DNA of 64,000 nt from Leptotrichia sp. oral taxon 218. Its GTDB lineage: Bacteria > Fusobacteriota > Fusobacteriia > Fusobacteriales > Leptotrichiaceae. The translations under genes were made by a program, and so were the position numbers. Below, one piece after another: positions 1,410 through 62,800 of the stretch. The notes beneath the pieces are model-generated. The model was not told the origin of the DNA. It saw only the letters and a list, made by a program, of their open reading frames with translations, and ran no database searches. Location: contig NZ_CP072377.1 in NCBI RefSeq assembly GCF_018128225.1, positions 1,550,001 to 1,614,000 of the forward strand, read 5' to 3'. Position 1 is the first letter of the stretch, and each line of letters begins with the position of its first letter.

Positions 1410-1900
1410 TAAATAGTACAAGAACACTCGCAACTTTATTCGTGAGATGAATTGCACGAAAATTTTAGTAAGCATATAGAGAAACTTGTATGTAGACACG
1501 GAGCAAAACCGTACAACAAAGAAACTGAACTGCTGGGAACTCTTAAAGCTAGTATAACCACAACATAATATCTAGGTAATAATATATGGTATAAGTGTGA
1601 TGGTGGCGAAAGCAGAAAAAATATACTAGATGGTGCAAGGTTAAATCCTAAACATTATGATAATAGACAATCAGCAGCTAAGCCTGAAAAGGAAAGTTCA
1701 ACGACTATCCCTCGTGAGGGGAGTACAATACAAGCGATTGGTATTGGAAGTGGTTTCGCCTAAGTCCTTGAAATAGGATATGGATAAGATATAGTCTGTG
1801 CTTGTTAGAGATAACAAGAAGTTCATGAGAGAACTGCATAAGTAGTTAGCGTACTTATGTGAACGACGCTTCCCGCTGCTGCGGGGTTTTAAAAACTTTA
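1410..1900 (+). ncRNA. Group I intron ribozyme region of IStron copy 1
   Basis: The four classical conserved group I segments appear in order: P-like (GATGGTGCAAGGTTAAATCC, about 1628-1647), Q (AATCAGCAGC, 1669-1678), R (GTTCAACGACTA, 1696-1707) and S (AAGATATAGTC, 1786-1796). R and S form a perfect P7 helix (GACTAT/ATAGTC). A GC hairpin (CCCTCGTGAGGG) follows R. The 5' splice site would be at the element's first base. The 3' splice site would be at the element's right end, more than a kilobase away, with tnpB lying in a peripheral loop. The catalytic fold is inferred from these motifs; no full folding was done. Confidence 0.8.
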
Positions 1901-1984
1901 AAAATATTTAAAAAATATTACTTTTTAATAGATAAAATGTAGGATATATAGTATAATATCTCTGATGAAAAGGAGGTGATATCT

Positions 1985-3232
1985 ATGTATTTAACTTTAA
2001 AACAACAGGTAAAACATCTTAGTAAAAAGGAGTTTAGAAATTTAAAATATTTGTGCCATATAGCTAAAAATTTAAAGAATCAAGCTATATATAATGTTAG
2101 ACAATACTATTTTAAAAATAAAAAGTATTTAAGTTATAACGAAAACTATAAAATGCTTAAAAACAGTGAGAACTATAAGAAGTTAAATTCTAATATGGCT
2201 CAACAAATTCTAAAAGAAGTAGACGGAAGTTTCAAATCATTTTTTGGACTTTTAAAACTTGCTAAAAATGGTCAATACGATAATAAAAAAATAAAATTAC
2301 CTAAATATCTTGCTAAAGATGGATTTACTACTCTTGTTATAGGTTTTGTTAGATTAAAAGATGATATTCTGAGAGTTCCTTATTCAAATTCGTTTAAGAA
2401 AATTCATCAGGAAGTTAAAATTAAGTTACCACCAGTATTAAAAGACAAGAAGATAAAAGAAATTAGAATAATACCAAAACAATATTCTAGGTACTTTGAA
2501 ATTCAATATACTTATGAGGTAGAAGAAGTTCAAAGGGAATTAAATGAAAACAATGCACTAGGAATTGATTTAGGCATAGACAATCTATGTACTTGTGTAA
2601 CTAATAATGGAGCATCATTCATAATAGATGGTAGAAAATTAAAGTCAATTAATCAATACTATAATAAGATAAATGCAAAATTACAAAGTATAAAAGATAA
2701 GCAAAAGACCTCCCGCACAACATTAAGGCAAAAGAGAATAGCTAGAAAGAGAAATAATCGTATAGAAGATTATCTTTCAAAAGCAGCAAGAATAATTGTA
2801 AATTATTGTCTTAATAATGATATAGGAAAAATAATTTTAGGATATAATGAAGATTTTCAAAGAAAATCAAATATTGGAAGTATAAATAATCAAAACTTTG
2901 TAAGTATACCATATGGAAAATTAAGAGATAAATTAATATACCTATGTAAACTATACGGAATAGAATTTAAACTGCAAGAAGAGAGTTATACATCAAAAGC
3001 AAGTTTCTTTGATGGAGATGAAATTCCAATATATGATAAAGAAAATCAAAAAGAATATATATTCAGTGGAAAAAGAATAAAAAGAGGACTATATCAAACA
3101 AGTGCAGGTAAACTCATAAATGCAGATTGTAATGGAGCATTAAATATTTTAAGAAAAAGTAAAGTTGTGGACTTAAGCGTCCTATACAATAGAGGTGAGC
3201 TGGACATGCCTAAAAGAATAAGGGTAGTGTAA
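1985..3232 (+). CDS. tnpB: TnpB (IS605 OrfB) RNA-guided nuclease of IStron copy 1
   Basis: TnpB proteins are RuvC-type nucleases guided by an omega RNA made from the element's right end. The split RuvC site is visible: [10 protein letters not shown] (Asp), ILGYNED (Glu) and [11 protein letters not shown] (Asp). The usual four-cysteine zinc finger between the second and third motifs is absent. In its place is a SYTSKASF…[12 protein letters not shown] stretch, known from a zinc-less TnpB branch. ATG 1985 is chosen over GTG 1976 because AGGAGG sits eight bases before it and the second copy starts at the same residue. A TATAAT box at 1952 could be its promoter. The 415-residue protein is nearly identical to the copy at 59925-61172. 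Confidence 0.92.
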   Translation: MYLTLKQQVKHLSKKEFRNLKYLCHIAKNLKNQAIYNVRQYYFKNKKYLSYNENYKMLKNSENYKKLNSNMAQQILKEVDGSFKSFFGLLKLAKNGQYDNKKIKLPKYLAKDGFTTLVIGFVRLKDDILRVPYSNSFKKIHQEVKIKLPPVLKDKKIKEIRIIPKQYSRYFEIQYTYEVEEVQRELNENNALGIDLGIDNLCTCVTNNGASFIIDGRKLKSINQYYNKINAKLQSIKDKQKTSRTTLRQKRIARKRNNRIEDYLSKAARIIVNYCLNNDIGKIILGYNEDFQRKSNIGSINNQNFVSIPYGKLRDKLIYLCKLYGIEFKLQEESYTSKASFFDGDEIPIYDKENQKEYIFSGKRIKRGLYQTSAGKLINADCNGALNILRKSKVVDLSVLYNRGELDMPKRIRVV

Positions 3233-3375
3233 AGCTATCAAACTTCTTAGAAAATTTTTAAATATTTTTAGAGATTTTAGAACCCTGCGACTTTAGTTGT
3301 GGGAGGTTCAGGATATAATAATTATTAATAAAAAAAAATAATAAATTTTTATAAATAATTAAAGAAAGGAGAAAA

Positions 3376-42733: not shown

Positions 42734-43042
42734 CTGAACCTCCCACGACTAAAGTCACAGGGTTCTAAAATCTTTAAAAGTATTTAAAAATCTTCTAAGA
42801 AGTTTGATAGCACAACAACTATCCTTATTCTTTTAGGCATGTTCAGCTCATCCCTATTGTATAGGACAACATTTAAGTCCACAACTTTACTTTTCTTTAG
42901 AATATTTAATACTCCATTACAGTCTTCAATCAAAGATGTTATATCATATATTCTATATTTTATCTACTAAAATTTTTCCATATGCTTACTAAATTTTCGT
43001 GCAATTCATCTCACAACTAAAGTTGCGAGTGTTCTAACTATT
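42734..43042 (-). mobile_element. IStron deletion derivative upstream of cas3
   Basis: Read on the minus strand it keeps the IStron left end (AGAACACTCGCAAC, then TAGTTGTGAGATGAATTGCA), the region before tnpB with a degenerate -10 (TGATATAAC), and the last part of tnpB (GACTGTAATGGAGTATTAAA onward) through GGAGGTTCAG. The ribozyme core and nearly all of tnpB are deleted, and the left edge has lost TAAAT. It sits between a TPR-gene fragment and cas3, so the cas operon promoter probably lies inside or beyond it. Confidence 0.8.
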
Positions 43043-43072
43043 GCCAAATTAAACATCGCATCATCATACCCC
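43039..43072 (-). pseudogene. Fragment of a TPR/Sel1-like gene
   Basis: ATTGCCAAATTAAACATCGC and the next bases match 32468-32500 in the TPR gene at about 30 positions with two changes. It directly abuts the IStron remnant, so a second TPR gene was probably destroyed here. Confidence 0.5.
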
Positions 43073-59744: not shown

Positions 59745-59817
59745 TCTAAAAGAGACGCCCCATCTCTACATTTAGACTTCTTTCATACAAAAAAGACGAG
59801 CACACGGCTCGTTTTTT
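59745..59817 (+). ncRNA. Candidate ~73-nt small RNA with a C-rich hairpin loop
   Basis: After the promoter at 59710 comes a stem-loop: GTCTAAA/TTTAGAC and AGAGA/TCTCT with a three-base bulge and the loop CGCCCCA (59744-59777). A linker and the ACGAGC/GCTCGT terminator with six T follow. No coding frame is present. C-rich loops that can pair with ribosome sites are a known feature of several bacterial regulatory RNAs. The terminator also serves queA on the other strand, so it alone is not evidence. Confidence 0.55.
59796..59817. terminator. Bidirectional terminator shared by queA and the small RNA
   Basis: The stem ACGAGC/GCTCGT with a 5-base loop has T runs on both strands. On the minus strand it begins at the queA stop codon in the 3' exon. 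Confidence 0.85.
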
Positions 59818-59845
59818 AATATACAAACATCGAATCTCCAAAACT
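59816..59845 (-). CDS. queA: 3' exon of queA
   Basis: Directly after the IStron right end, the minus strand reads S-F-G-D-S-M-F-V-Y and stop. This is the conserved QueA C-terminus (typical form YRFFSFGDAM…). It continues exactly in phase from …RFY at 61793 once the element is removed. Confidence 0.88.
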   Translation of the reverse strand, partial: SFGDSMFVY

Positions 59846-59924
59846 CTGAACCTCCCACGACTAAAGTCGCAGAGTTCTAAAATCTTTAAAAATATTCAAA
59901 AATTTTCTAAGAAGTTTGATAGCT

Positions 59925-61172
59925 TTACACTACCCTTATTCTTTCAGGCGTGTCCAGCTCACCTCTATTGTATAGGACACTTAAGTCCACAACTTTACTT
60001 TTTCTTAATATGTTTAATGCTCCATTACAATCCGCATTTAATTGATAACCTTTACTTGTTTGATATAGTCCTCTTTTTATTCTTTTTCCACTGAATATAT
60101 ATTCTTTTTGATTTTCTTTATCATATATTGGAATTTCATCTCCATCAAAGAAACTTGCTTTTGATGTATAACTCTCTTCTTGCAGTTTAAATTCTATTCC
60201 ATATAGTTTACATAGATATATTAATTTATCTCTTAATTTTCCATATGGTATATTTGCAAAATTTTGATTATTTATACTTCCAATATTTGAATTTCTTTGA
60301 AAATCTTCATTATATCCTAGAACTATTTTCCCTATATCATTATTAAGACAATAATTTATTATTATTCTTGCTGCTTTTGAAAGATAATCTTCTATACGAT
60401 TATTTCTCTTTCTAGTTATTCTCTTTTGTCTTAATGTTGTGTGCTTAATCTTTTGCTTATCTTTTATACTTTGTAATTCTGCATTTATCTTATTATAGTA
60501 TTGATTTATTGATTTTAATTTTCTACCATCTATTATGAACGAAGCCCCAGTATTTGTAACACAAGTACACAGATTGTCTATACCTAAATCTATTCCTAGT
60601 ACATTTTCTTTATTTAATTCCCTTTGAACTTCTTCTACCTCATAAATGTATTGAATTTCAAAGTACCTAGAATGTTGTTTTGGTATTATTCTAATCTCTT
60701 TTATCTTCTTGCCTTTTAATACTGGTGGTAGTTTTATTGCGATTTCCTTATGTGTCTTTCTAAATGAATTTGAATAAGGAACTATCAGCATATCATCTTT
60801 TAATCTAACAAAACCTATAACAAGGGTAGTAAAACCATCTTTAGCAAGATATTTAGGTAATTTTATATCTTTAAAATTATATTGACCATTTTTAGCAAGT
60901 TTTAAAAGTCCAAAAAATGATTTGAAACTTCCGTCTACTTCCTTTAGAATTTGTTGAGCCATATTAGAATTTAACTTCTTATAGTTCTCACTATTTTTAA
61001 GCATTTTATAGTTTTCATTATAACTTAAATACTTTTTATTTTCAAAATAGTATTGTCTAACATTATATATAGCCTCATTAGTTAAGTTCTTGGCTATATG
61101 AGATAAATATTTTAAAATCCTAAACTCATTTTTACTAAGATGTTTTACCTGTTGTCTTAATGTTAAATACAT
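59925..61172 (-). CDS. tnpB: TnpB (IS605 OrfB) RNA-guided nuclease of IStron copy 2
   Basis: It has 415 residues with the same RuvC triad as copy 1 ([26 protein letters not shown]) and the same zinc-less segment (SYTSKASF…[10 protein letters not shown]). Differences from copy 1 are scattered substitutions with no stop, so both copies appear functional. The ribosome site is AAAGGAGGTGA. Its omega RNA would come from the 3' end of this gene and the element end. The guide would then be the queA 3' exon. Confidence 0.92.
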
Positions 61173-61289
61173 ATATAATCACCTCCTTTTCATCAGAGAT
61201 ATTATACCATGTATTCTACATTTTATCTGTCAAAAAAGTAATATTTTTATTTATTTTTAAATATTTTTAAAGTTTTTAAAACCCCACAA

Positions 61290-61792
61290 CAGTGGGAAGC
61301 GTCGTTCACATAAGTGCGCTACTACTTATGCAGTTCTCATGGCATATATACTCCTTAATAAATTAAGGAGATTAGCCTTGAACCTCTTGTTATCTCTAAC
61401 AAGCACAGACTATATCTTATCCATATCCTGTTTCAAGGACTTAGGCGAAACCACTTCCAATACCAGTCGCTTGTATTGTACTCCCCTCACGAGGGATAGT
61501 CGTTGAACTTTCCTTTTCAGGCTTAGCTGCTGATTGTCTATTATCATAATGTTTAGGATTTAACCTTGCACCATCTAGTATATTTTTTCTGCTTTCGCTA
61601 CCTTCACACTTATACCATATTTGAACGAAGGTATTATGTTGTGGTTATACCAGCTTTAAGAGTTCCCAGCAGTTCAGTTTCTTTGTTGCACGGTTTTGCT
61701 CCGTATCTACATACAAGTTTCCCTATATGCTTACTAAAATTTTCGTGCAATTCATCTCACGACTAAAGTTGTGAGTGTTCTTGCACTATTTA
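61290..61792 (-). ncRNA. Group I intron ribozyme region of IStron copy 2
   Basis: The conserved core is the same as in copy 1: Q (AATCAGCAGC), R (GTTCAACGACTA, 61498-61509) and S (AAGATATAGTC, 61408-61418), with a perfect R/S helix. After S this copy has an extra hairpin (CTCCTTAAT…ATTAAGGAG) that is missing in copy 1, a peripheral change that should not affect the core. The 5' splice site is at 61793/61792, within queA. Confidence 0.8.
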
Positions 61793-62800
61793 ATAAAATC
61801 TATACTTTTCTTCAATCGCTTTTTTATACGCCGAAAATACAAAATCTTTTCCAGCAAATGCCGAAACTAACATAACAAGCGTAGATTTTGGCAAATGAAA
61901 ATTAGTAATTATCGCATCAACAATTTTAAATTTATAATCTCCATAGATAAAAATATTTGTAGCTCCACTTTTTGGAAGAAGTTTGCCATTTTCATCAACA
62001 CAAGACTCCAATGTTCTCACAGAAGTTGTTCCAACCGCTATAACTCTGTTTCCATTTTCTTTAGCTTCATTCACAATTTTTGCAGTTTCTTCGGGAATCC
62101 AGTATTTTTCACTATGCATTTTATGCTCAGTCACATCTTCAACCTGCACAGGTCTAAAAGTCCCAAGTCCAACATCTAAAAATACTTCCGTCAAAATAAT
62201 ACCTTTTTTTTCTATTTTTTTAAGCAATTCTGTTGTAAAATGAAGTCCCGCAGTCGGTGCTGCAACCGATTCTCCTTTTTTTGCATAAACTGTCTGATAA
62301 CGATTTTTGTCTGAAAGTTTTTCAGTTATATAAGGTGGAAGTGGCATCTCTCCCAATTTATCCAATATTTCTTCAAAATTTCCTTCAAACTCAAATCTCA
62401 AAACTCTATTCCCATCTTCTTTAATCTCAATTAACTCCGCTTCTAAAAGACCTTTACTAAACACAATTTTCTGTCCTATTTTCAACTTTTTAGCAGGTTT
62501 TAGCAAAACTTCCCAAGTGTTTAAATCACATCTTTTTAATAAAAAGCACTCCATCAACGCTCCAATTTCTTCTCCATCCAACTTTTTATGTCCAAAAATT
62601 CTTGCAGGAATGACTTTTGTTCTATTTATGACAAGCACATCCCCTTTTTTTAAATAGTCGATTATATCAAAAAAATGTCTGTGTTCAAGTGTCTTTTCTT
62701 CTTTATTTAAAACTAAAAGTCTGGAACTATCTCTTGGCTCTGCCGCCTTTTGTGCAATTAATTCCTTTGGCAATTCAAAATCAAAATCTGATATTTTCAC
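61793..62800 (-). CDS. queA: tRNA preQ1(34) S-adenosylmethionine ribosyltransferase-isomerase, 5' exon
   Basis: QueA adds the cyclopentene ring precursor to preQ1 in tRNA during queuosine synthesis. Typical parts are FDFELPKELIAQKAAEPRDSSRL, VINRTKVIPARIFG, GEMPLPPYI, YAKKGESVAAPTAGLHFT, LDVGLGTFRPV and NFHLPKSTL. Unspliced, the frame ends …EEKYRFY then a TAA supplied by the IStron (61790-61792), giving 336 residues without the conserved FGD end. Splicing to the exon at 59816 gives 345 residues, the family norm. It starts with GTG after AAGGAG. Confidence 0.95.

Follow-up and report, generated by a model that had tools for sequence, protein, structure and literature searches.

A probable self-splicing IStron in queA of Leptotrichia sp. 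oral taxon 218 and its dispersed copies

The queA gene in a 64,000-nucleotide stretch of the genome of Leptotrichia sp. oral taxon 218 (NCBI RefSeq assembly GCF_018128225.1, contig NZ_CP072377.1, positions 1,550,001 to 1,614,000 of the forward strand; hereafter the window, whose numbering is used throughout) is interrupted nine codons before its end, which raises the question of whether the gene is truncated or whether the interrupting element is removed from the transcript. The element occupies positions 61792..59846 of the minus strand (1947 bp) and consists of a group I intron joined to a gene for a TnpB of the IS200/IS605 type, a combination known as an IStron, inserted after the pentamer TTTAT. 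We consider it very probable that the element is a group A IStron, in which an IS200/IS605-type element with a TnpB gene is fused to a self-splicing intron of class IA2, and that it lies on the sense strand of queA and is spliced from the transcript. The parts of element and host gene described below are all on the minus strand.

The first queA exon (61793..62800, 336 codons) matches the QueA profiles NF001140 at 460.1 bits (cut-off 324) and TIGR00113 at 410.9 bits, also above its cut-off, as well as PF02547. As the initial annotation had proposed, its frame is open to EEKYRFY and is then ended by the element's own TAA, which is read because the element joins queA in phase 0, and the resulting product is 336 aa long. 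The second exon (59816..59845) encodes SFGDSMFVY and a stop, such that the junction reads AAG TAT AGA TTT TAT / TAAATAGTGC ... GGAGGTTCAG / AGT TTT GGA GAT TCG ATG TTT GTA TAT TAA. That SFGDSMFVY is the conserved end of QueA was borne out by relatives: among 12 from the same genus, nine have an uninterrupted queA whose product ends in the same manner, with YRFYSFGDSMFVY or ...IY, and the remaining three carry an IStron within queA (the comparison printed 25 loci, with the row for genome G035 left out). Furthermore, the DNA of five relatives (G012, G002, G008, G007, and G009) has an empty site that runs continuously as TTTTAT-AGYTTTGG with no base gained or lost. These sites match, base for base, the junction that would be left by removing 59846-61792, and both the coordinates and the in-phase rejoining of codons predicted for that removal proved exact.

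An insertion that is never spliced, and that is tolerated near the end of the gene because QueA works with 336 residues or is dispensable, would cost the protein nine codons and no more, and queA is often dispensable. We nevertheless regard this explanation as very unlikely. The severed residues are conserved in the relatives, the first 549 nt of the element are identical to those of another copy that scores 50.3 bits, above the Rfam gathering score for group I introns, and IStrons of the queA type also interrupt genes in the middle of a domain, dnaB included.

Evidence for the alternative that we favour, splicing of the element from the queA transcript, begins with its ribozyme, the core of which lies at 61386..61720. 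A covariance search with the Rfam group I model, which the initial annotation had suggested, gave a divided result. A 371-base query from the window copy matched RF00028 over the full length of the model (1-253) at 44.6 bits (E = 2.5e-10), which is below the gathering score of 50, and the fast settings of Rfam returned no group I intron on the whole window or on three loci at the gathering score, nor on a 2.2-kb query at E <= 10. We do not count the null results on long queries against the ribozyme and attribute them to a filter effect, because the same search overlooked copy L100 too, yet that copy reaches 72.1 bits in a direct search or with a short query. The Rfam alignment of the window copy runs through the P, Q, R, and S segments of a group I intron (CUGCUGGGAA, AAUCAGCAGCUAAG, GUUCAACGACUA, and AAGAUAUAGUCU) that had been recognized at the outset.

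We also examined base pairing in 24 aligned introns, a diverse set chosen by hand from 36 candidate sequences and including both of the IStron families described below. P3, P7, P7.1, P7.2, P9, P9.1, and P9.2 were found, with letters for P9.1 in 14 of the 24, and the P3/P7 core, P7.1, P7.2, and an extended P9 place the intron in class IA2; P8 was excluded from the pair count because the alignment there is one column off. Standard pairs occupied 98.1% of 1504 cells (66 named pairs across the 24 introns), a percentage that leans towards the window copy since the structure was written with its sequence in view, and pairing fell to 33-41% when the partner strand was slid. Two-sided changes were present at 25 of the 66 pairs, compared with a shuffled mean of 16.1. 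P3 together with P7 defines the group I core. The 5' strand of P3 (61675..61681, pairing with 61453-61447) and its 3' strand (61447..61453) were paired in 100% of the 24 sequences, with two-sided changes in four of seven pairs, many of which separate the two IStron families and may therefore represent few events. P7, which forms a pseudoknot with P3, was invariant in both its 5' strand (61497..61501, pairing with 61412-61408) and its 3' strand (61408..61412). In a predicted fold (z -4.9), P1 formed with the 5' exon and placed a U-G pair at the splice site. Based on the RF00028 match, the sister copy above the gathering score, and the compensatory changes, including those in P3, we conclude at the level of sequence that the ribozyme is real.

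These compensatory pairs bear on another explanation, according to which precise, TnpA-driven excision from the DNA in part of the population leaves the interrupted genes intact. Excision of IS200/IS605 elements is precise, the empty sites are exact, and four Y1 transposase genes are present elsewhere in the genome. However, excision at the DNA level leaves the compensatory pairs of the ribozyme unexplained, as it does the sense bias of the insertions and the absence from genes of the ribozyme-less elements examined below, and we consider it exceedingly unlikely.

The window element is one of many. A feature that the initial annotation had not described is its intact 415-aa TnpB, and the genome contains at least 28 copies of the element. 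We assembled a census of 64 copies from eight genomes, with 28 from the genome of the window itself (G000) and 36 from seven relatives; numbers per genome are lower bounds since scoring of the candidates was not complete in every genome. The pentamer TTTAT (61793..61797 in the window) stands exactly 5' of 63 of the 64 copies, with an extra T (TTTATT) in L054, and all 64 end in TTCAG (59846..59850), which is also the predicted 3' splice site. The boundaries of the whole element and predicted intron (59846..61792, TAAATAG...GGTTCAG) are common to other copies and agree with the empty site of the relatives. Near the left end, a hairpin with a detectable stem (61756..61775) constitutes the transposon end within an extension of P1, and a second hairpin, CGACTTTAGTCG (59858..59869), can be read from the sequence near the right end; the element thus has subterminal palindromes at both ends and, as the exact empty sites indicate, no target duplication. 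Dispersed copies and exact empty sites together imply past mobility of the element, as far as sequence comparison can tell.

The internal guide sequence of the window copy, GUAAG (61730..61734), would pair with the exon UUUAU, placing U opposite G at the splice site. GTAAG is in place in 63 of the 64 copies. It is missing in L130 of genome G003, in which a deletion within the 5' intron part removes the guide and the 5' side of P3, and the upstream frame of this copy, which is not intragenic, stops two codons past the element. The same genome as the window contains a second family of six copies (1779-1783 bp) inserted after TTGAT, and all six carry GTCAG. Nine more divergent copies from relatives have TTGATTAAA at their left end (placed by eye); the guide reads GTCAG in seven of them and GTCAA in the other two, that of L175 being taken from a separate reading. 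Because target and guide letters change together across the families, the sequences indicate that UUUAU pairs with GUAAG and that UUGAU pairs with GUCAG or GUCAA. The presence of two families in one genome in which the transposon target and the intron guide change together ties the DNA half of the element to its RNA half. We also noted that L173, L177, and L179 are TTGAT-family introns in G004, G003, and G002 that apparently occupy the same site of a homologous gene, with near-identical sequence upstream.

In the mechanism that we propose, the TAA of the element itself would halt ribosomes at the boundary, and the exon UUUAU would pair with the internal guide GUAAG in the queA transcript. Guanosine would then attack after the U-G pair, releasing the 5' exon, which would in turn attack after the last G of the element and yield a spliced mRNA that reads ...RFYSFGDSMFVY. 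At the DNA level, the pentamer TTTAT would be the target of the transposon and probably also the transposon-associated motif (TAM) of TnpB. The flank beyond TTCAG would supply the guide, such that the first ~20 nt of queA exon 2 would double as a TnpB guide by analogy with the known TnpB mechanism, and TnpB would cut empty sites after TTTAT and thereby preserve the element. Since the element contains no TnpA, transposition presumably depends on TnpA supplied in trans.

The census also provides population evidence that bears on splicing. A copy was scored as intragenic when at least 30 codons from an upstream start were followed, in the same phase, by at least 9 open codons downstream. By this rule, 40 of the 64 copies are intragenic in the sense orientation and 4 are in the antisense one; requiring 40 or more codons on each side leaves 33 and 1, and requiring 60 or more upstream and 30 or more downstream leaves 29 and 0. 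By comparison, 265 of 690 TTTAT sites in window open reading frames (ORFs) are in sense. We rejected the four antisense passes (L036, L040, L122, and L151) as genes, as each faces a longer sense frame: the first three also pass in sense with frames that are far longer, and L151 (95+14 codons, no sense pass) lies opposite a 190-codon sense frame beginning right beyond the element. One sense pass, L045 (58+10 codons), may have arisen by chance. The 40 sense copies represent 36 sites once those common to several genomes are merged (queA codon 336, nagB, and a gene for a DUF956 protein). Each of the six TTGAT-family copies of G000 is likewise intragenic in sense, with two of them also showing a shorter antisense frame. 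In the window itself, a second full copy of the queA-type IStron (L053) lies at 1410-3311 on the plus strand, and no ORF spans its flanks.

As a control, we used short elements with similar ends and no ribozyme. From 24 such elements, seven were dropped for want of a recognizable right end, and the 17 retained include two (L068 and L069) that belong to another end family. None of the 17 is intragenic in sense, and in antisense L069 shows a marginal pair of frames (35+16 codons). The difference from the IStrons (40 of 64 versus 0 of 17) is significant (Fisher p = 1.9e-6). Insertion phases 0, 1, and 2 were represented by 14, 3, and 23 of the 40 sense copies, compared with 50, 21, and 29% expected from TTTAT in window ORFs, which shows that phase 1 is depleted (p = 0.02). 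An earlier survey reports that IStrons prefer the phase that puts the element's TAA in frame (PMC4227781), a preference to which our counts lend weak support, as the enriched phase is 2 and not 0.

A sense bias could also arise from replication, in that the lagging-strand template is where IS200/IS605 elements insert and genes run in the direction of the fork. Consistent with this idea, 25 of the 28 G000 copies point the way the fork moves, assuming an origin at dnaA (2.061 Mb) and a terminus on the opposite side of the chromosome. However, of 50 window ORFs, only 29 are on the strand expected to run with the fork, from which ratios of 40 to 4 or 29 to 0 are not expected, and the open downstream exons are left unexplained. 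Replication orientation may contribute to the sense bias, but it does not replace splicing, and as a full account we give it very little credence.

The host genes themselves argue for splicing. When exon pieces were searched apart, the matches ran on within one profile, as for HIGH_NTase1 (1-274 and 278-357) and for RecJ, with its DHH domain followed by DHHA1 and OB. In genome G003, the dnaB gene is split such that the pieces match DnaB_C 1-133 and 134-255, with the break at profile position 133/134. This is the only full, replicative DnaB found in G003, the other match, which probably represents RadA, being weak (32.6 bits). As bacteria cannot do without DnaB, splicing or something equivalent must happen in this relative. 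Similarly, the search of G000 for type IA topoisomerases returned a split topA and no other. Taken together, the sense intragenic copies with both exons open and the interruption of dnaB and topA strongly imply that splicing occurs in the cell. These bacteria thus present a natural experiment, in which sense intragenic copies, ribozyme-less sisters outside genes, and split dnaB and topA genes argue for splicing, and the occurrence of many copies, some in genes that are normally indispensable, makes a strong natural case for splicing in living cells.

Several observations weigh against this reading. The second exon of queA comprises nine codons only, and this locus taken alone could be a tolerated truncation. 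The RF00028 score of the window copy is below the gathering score, and one of five measures of covariation, the number of further pair types, was not above the shuffles (48 versus a mean of 49.5). The intragenic rule failed for 24 of the 64 copies, with 14 of these lying just upstream of an open sense frame of at least 60 codons and 10 doing neither. Finally, tnpA is not present inside the element, and TnpB is missing the canonical RuvC-II glutamate and zinc finger, such that nuclease activity would rest on an alternative glutamate.

The tnpB gene (59925..61172, 415 aa) belongs to the RNA-guided nuclease family and is of the alternative-glutamate type without a zinc finger; it matches NF040570 (guided_TnpB) at 213.8 bits (cut-off 100), PF01385, and PF07282. 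It lies 3' of P9.2 behind a GAACGA motif (61302..61307), which according to PMC4227781 marks the start of the insertion sequence (IS) part in known IStrons. Across the census, TnpB is at least 400 aa long in 54 of 64 copies, with L042 lacking most of tnpB and L134 lacking it altogether, and 52 of the 54 have a median pairwise ratio of nonsynonymous to synonymous substitution rates (dN/dS) of 0.17. D195, E332, E333, and D381 are invariant in these 52. The canonical RuvC-II glutamate and the zinc finger occur in many, not all, TnpBs. In the window TnpB, the canonical RuvC-II region reads IVLGYNEDF, its glutamate is lost in L108, L110, and L111, and there is no CxxC pair, which means that the canonical RuvC triad with zinc finger is not found. 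As described in PMC10711439, Ealt TnpBs also lack the canonical glutamate and have an alternative one six residues before the first zinc-finger cysteine position, which is where E333 lies. Because Ealt TnpBs share this loss, the sequence places the window protein in the alternative-glutamate subtype rather than outside TnpB. The position of E333 thus agrees with that of the glutamate in Ealt TnpBs and Fanzors (PMC10711439), although the window TnpB has a RuvC-I motif of DLG rather than DPG and no zinc-finger cysteines. A predicted structure (predicted local distance difference test 77, predicted template modelling score 0.51) matches Cas12f and TnpB structures, with low confidence from residue 336 on; a sequence search of solved structures with TnpB returned no match. 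A scan for TnpB in genome contigs, from which records near the window's own genome may be absent, yielded four relatives. The TTGAT-family copies with intact tnpB encode a canonical-type TnpB.

Related elements are also present. A 313-bp mini-element without a ribozyme lies at about 42734-43046 on the minus strand of the window and has the same right end as the IStron, its left boundary being uncertain. Eight of the 24 short elements are mini-elements of 302-320 bp, and in the two aligned in detail (L065 and L067) the left end is retained along with a stretch upstream of tnpB and the region of the tnpB 3' end, so that they may make guide RNA for TnpB in trans. Seven elements (L154, L155, L158, L159, L161, L162, and L168) are 45 bp long, lie after TTTAT, and join the left-end hairpin to the right end (GGAGGTTCAG); they may represent solo remnants or else minimal mobile units. 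Two of the Y1 genes lie in an element that shares right-end and tnpB-3' sequence with the TTGAT family but has different ends. In G000, L104 and L105 are intron-less ISs with TnpA and TnpB whose right-end/tnpB-3' region resembles that of the TTGAT IStron, and they are a possible source of TnpA in trans. ISs from Synergistales metagenome-assembled genomes (L108 and L109) encode a TnpB that is ~65% identical and have similar end hairpins, but no intron lies between the left end and tnpB; the flank of L108 is TTGAT, and these ISs may show the IS half before it met the intron. Finally, Finegoldia magna pFMC (L181) and a Paenibacillus larvae plasmid (L182) encode a TnpB that is ~70% identical. Their DNA match reaches into the intron part (from query positions 279 and 183 onward), the 5' part of the intron is unmatched, and they are annotated only as TnpB; judging from this match, they are probably IStron relatives on Bacillota plasmids.

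We also considered which genes are occupied. Among eight IStron-bearing genomes, queA is occupied in four at three sites, namely codon 336 (G000 and G004), codon 284 in window numbering (G003), and codon 87 (G005), and all three sites are empty and exact in G012. The two copies at codon 336 share 95.2% identity, a closeness similar to that of copies at unrelated sites, the nagB-site copies (G002, G003, and G004) are 93.5-93.9% identical, and the DUF956-site copies (G002 and G022) 91.6%; shared descent, parallel insertion, or gene conversion may explain such cases. Among 34 host genes compared by blastp of exon pieces, queA alone has two or more distinct sites. In a simulation, the probability that any gene is struck three times in 36 sites was 0.005, 0.02, or 0.08 for 2000, 1000, or 500 permissive genes, and this recurrence, found after the fact, is suggestive only.

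DNA replication, repair, and recombination account for 9 of 40 distinct hosts (recJ, mfd, dnaB, ruvB, mutL, recG, uvrB, topA, and dprA); the 40 comprise 34 of the TTTAT family and 6 of the TTGAT family, names were obtained for part of them, in searches that covered all but L045. TTGAT-family hosts in G000 (L060-L064) include topA, dprA, and a GMP_PMI-like gene. Against assumed backgrounds of 5, 6, or 8%, p was 0.0001, 0.0005, or 0.004 for a class picked after seeing the list. PMC4227781 describes IStron hosts of diverse functions, unlike group I introns that favour DNA-metabolism genes, and the genus studied here may differ from that pattern. That its IStrons are kept preferentially in DNA replication, repair, and recombination genes and in queA, although their target is five bases, is a doubtful proposition as it stands; if true, the persistence of self-splicing elements would be set by host-gene function and not by homing-site sequence, perhaps because conditional splicing in such genes can be tolerated or brings the element an advantage. 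The repeated occupation of DNA-repair genes and queA raises the question of why introns favour such genes.

The initial annotation implied that an IStron outside Clostridia would be new, which the literature does not bear out: a report of 2007 describes IStrons of Fusobacterium nucleatum (PMC1924603), and one of 2014 lists them for Bacillus, Fusobacterium, and Leptotrichia buccalis (PMC4227781). Among the literature matches listed, there was no mention of queA as an IStron host, and for Leptotrichia with group I introns only PMC4227781 concerns IStrons by title. Group A IStrons are inserted after TTGAT, ATTAT, or TTTAT and have TCAG at the 3' end (PMC4227781), with which TTTAT and TTCAG agree, and each sequence feature of the group A definition that we examined is present in the window element. 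LbISt1 of L. buccalis (PMC4227781) is likewise a group A element with an IA2 intron and an IS200/IS605 ORF B, has a truncated ORF A, is present in one copy, and has an ORF B nearest ISBth17; at 1760 bp, it is closer in size to the 1780-bp TTGAT family than to the 1.9-kb TTTAT family. CdISt1 of Clostridioides difficile, whose splicing has been confirmed by others (cited in PMC4227781), is also of group A, with a T-rich target pentamer, a TCAG end, and an IA2 intron; some of its copies have ORF A, and strains carry 9-24 copies. As here, two group A families, FnISt1 and FnISt2, share one Fusobacteria genome, although they reach 1-6 copies per strain (PMC1924603, PMC4227781). By description only, the closest relative of the TTTAT family may be FnISt2, which has an ORF B nearest ISSoc6 (37%). 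Taken together, these comparisons indicate that the kind of element is already known and that its copy number is unusual, in that a single 2.17-Mb genome has at least 28 TTTAT-family and 6 TTGAT-family IStrons and its relatives have dozens, versus at most 24 per strain in the earlier survey (PMC4227781); the copy number, the co-variation of target and guide, the three queA sites, the alternative-glutamate TnpB, and the many DNA-repair hosts are the newer points.

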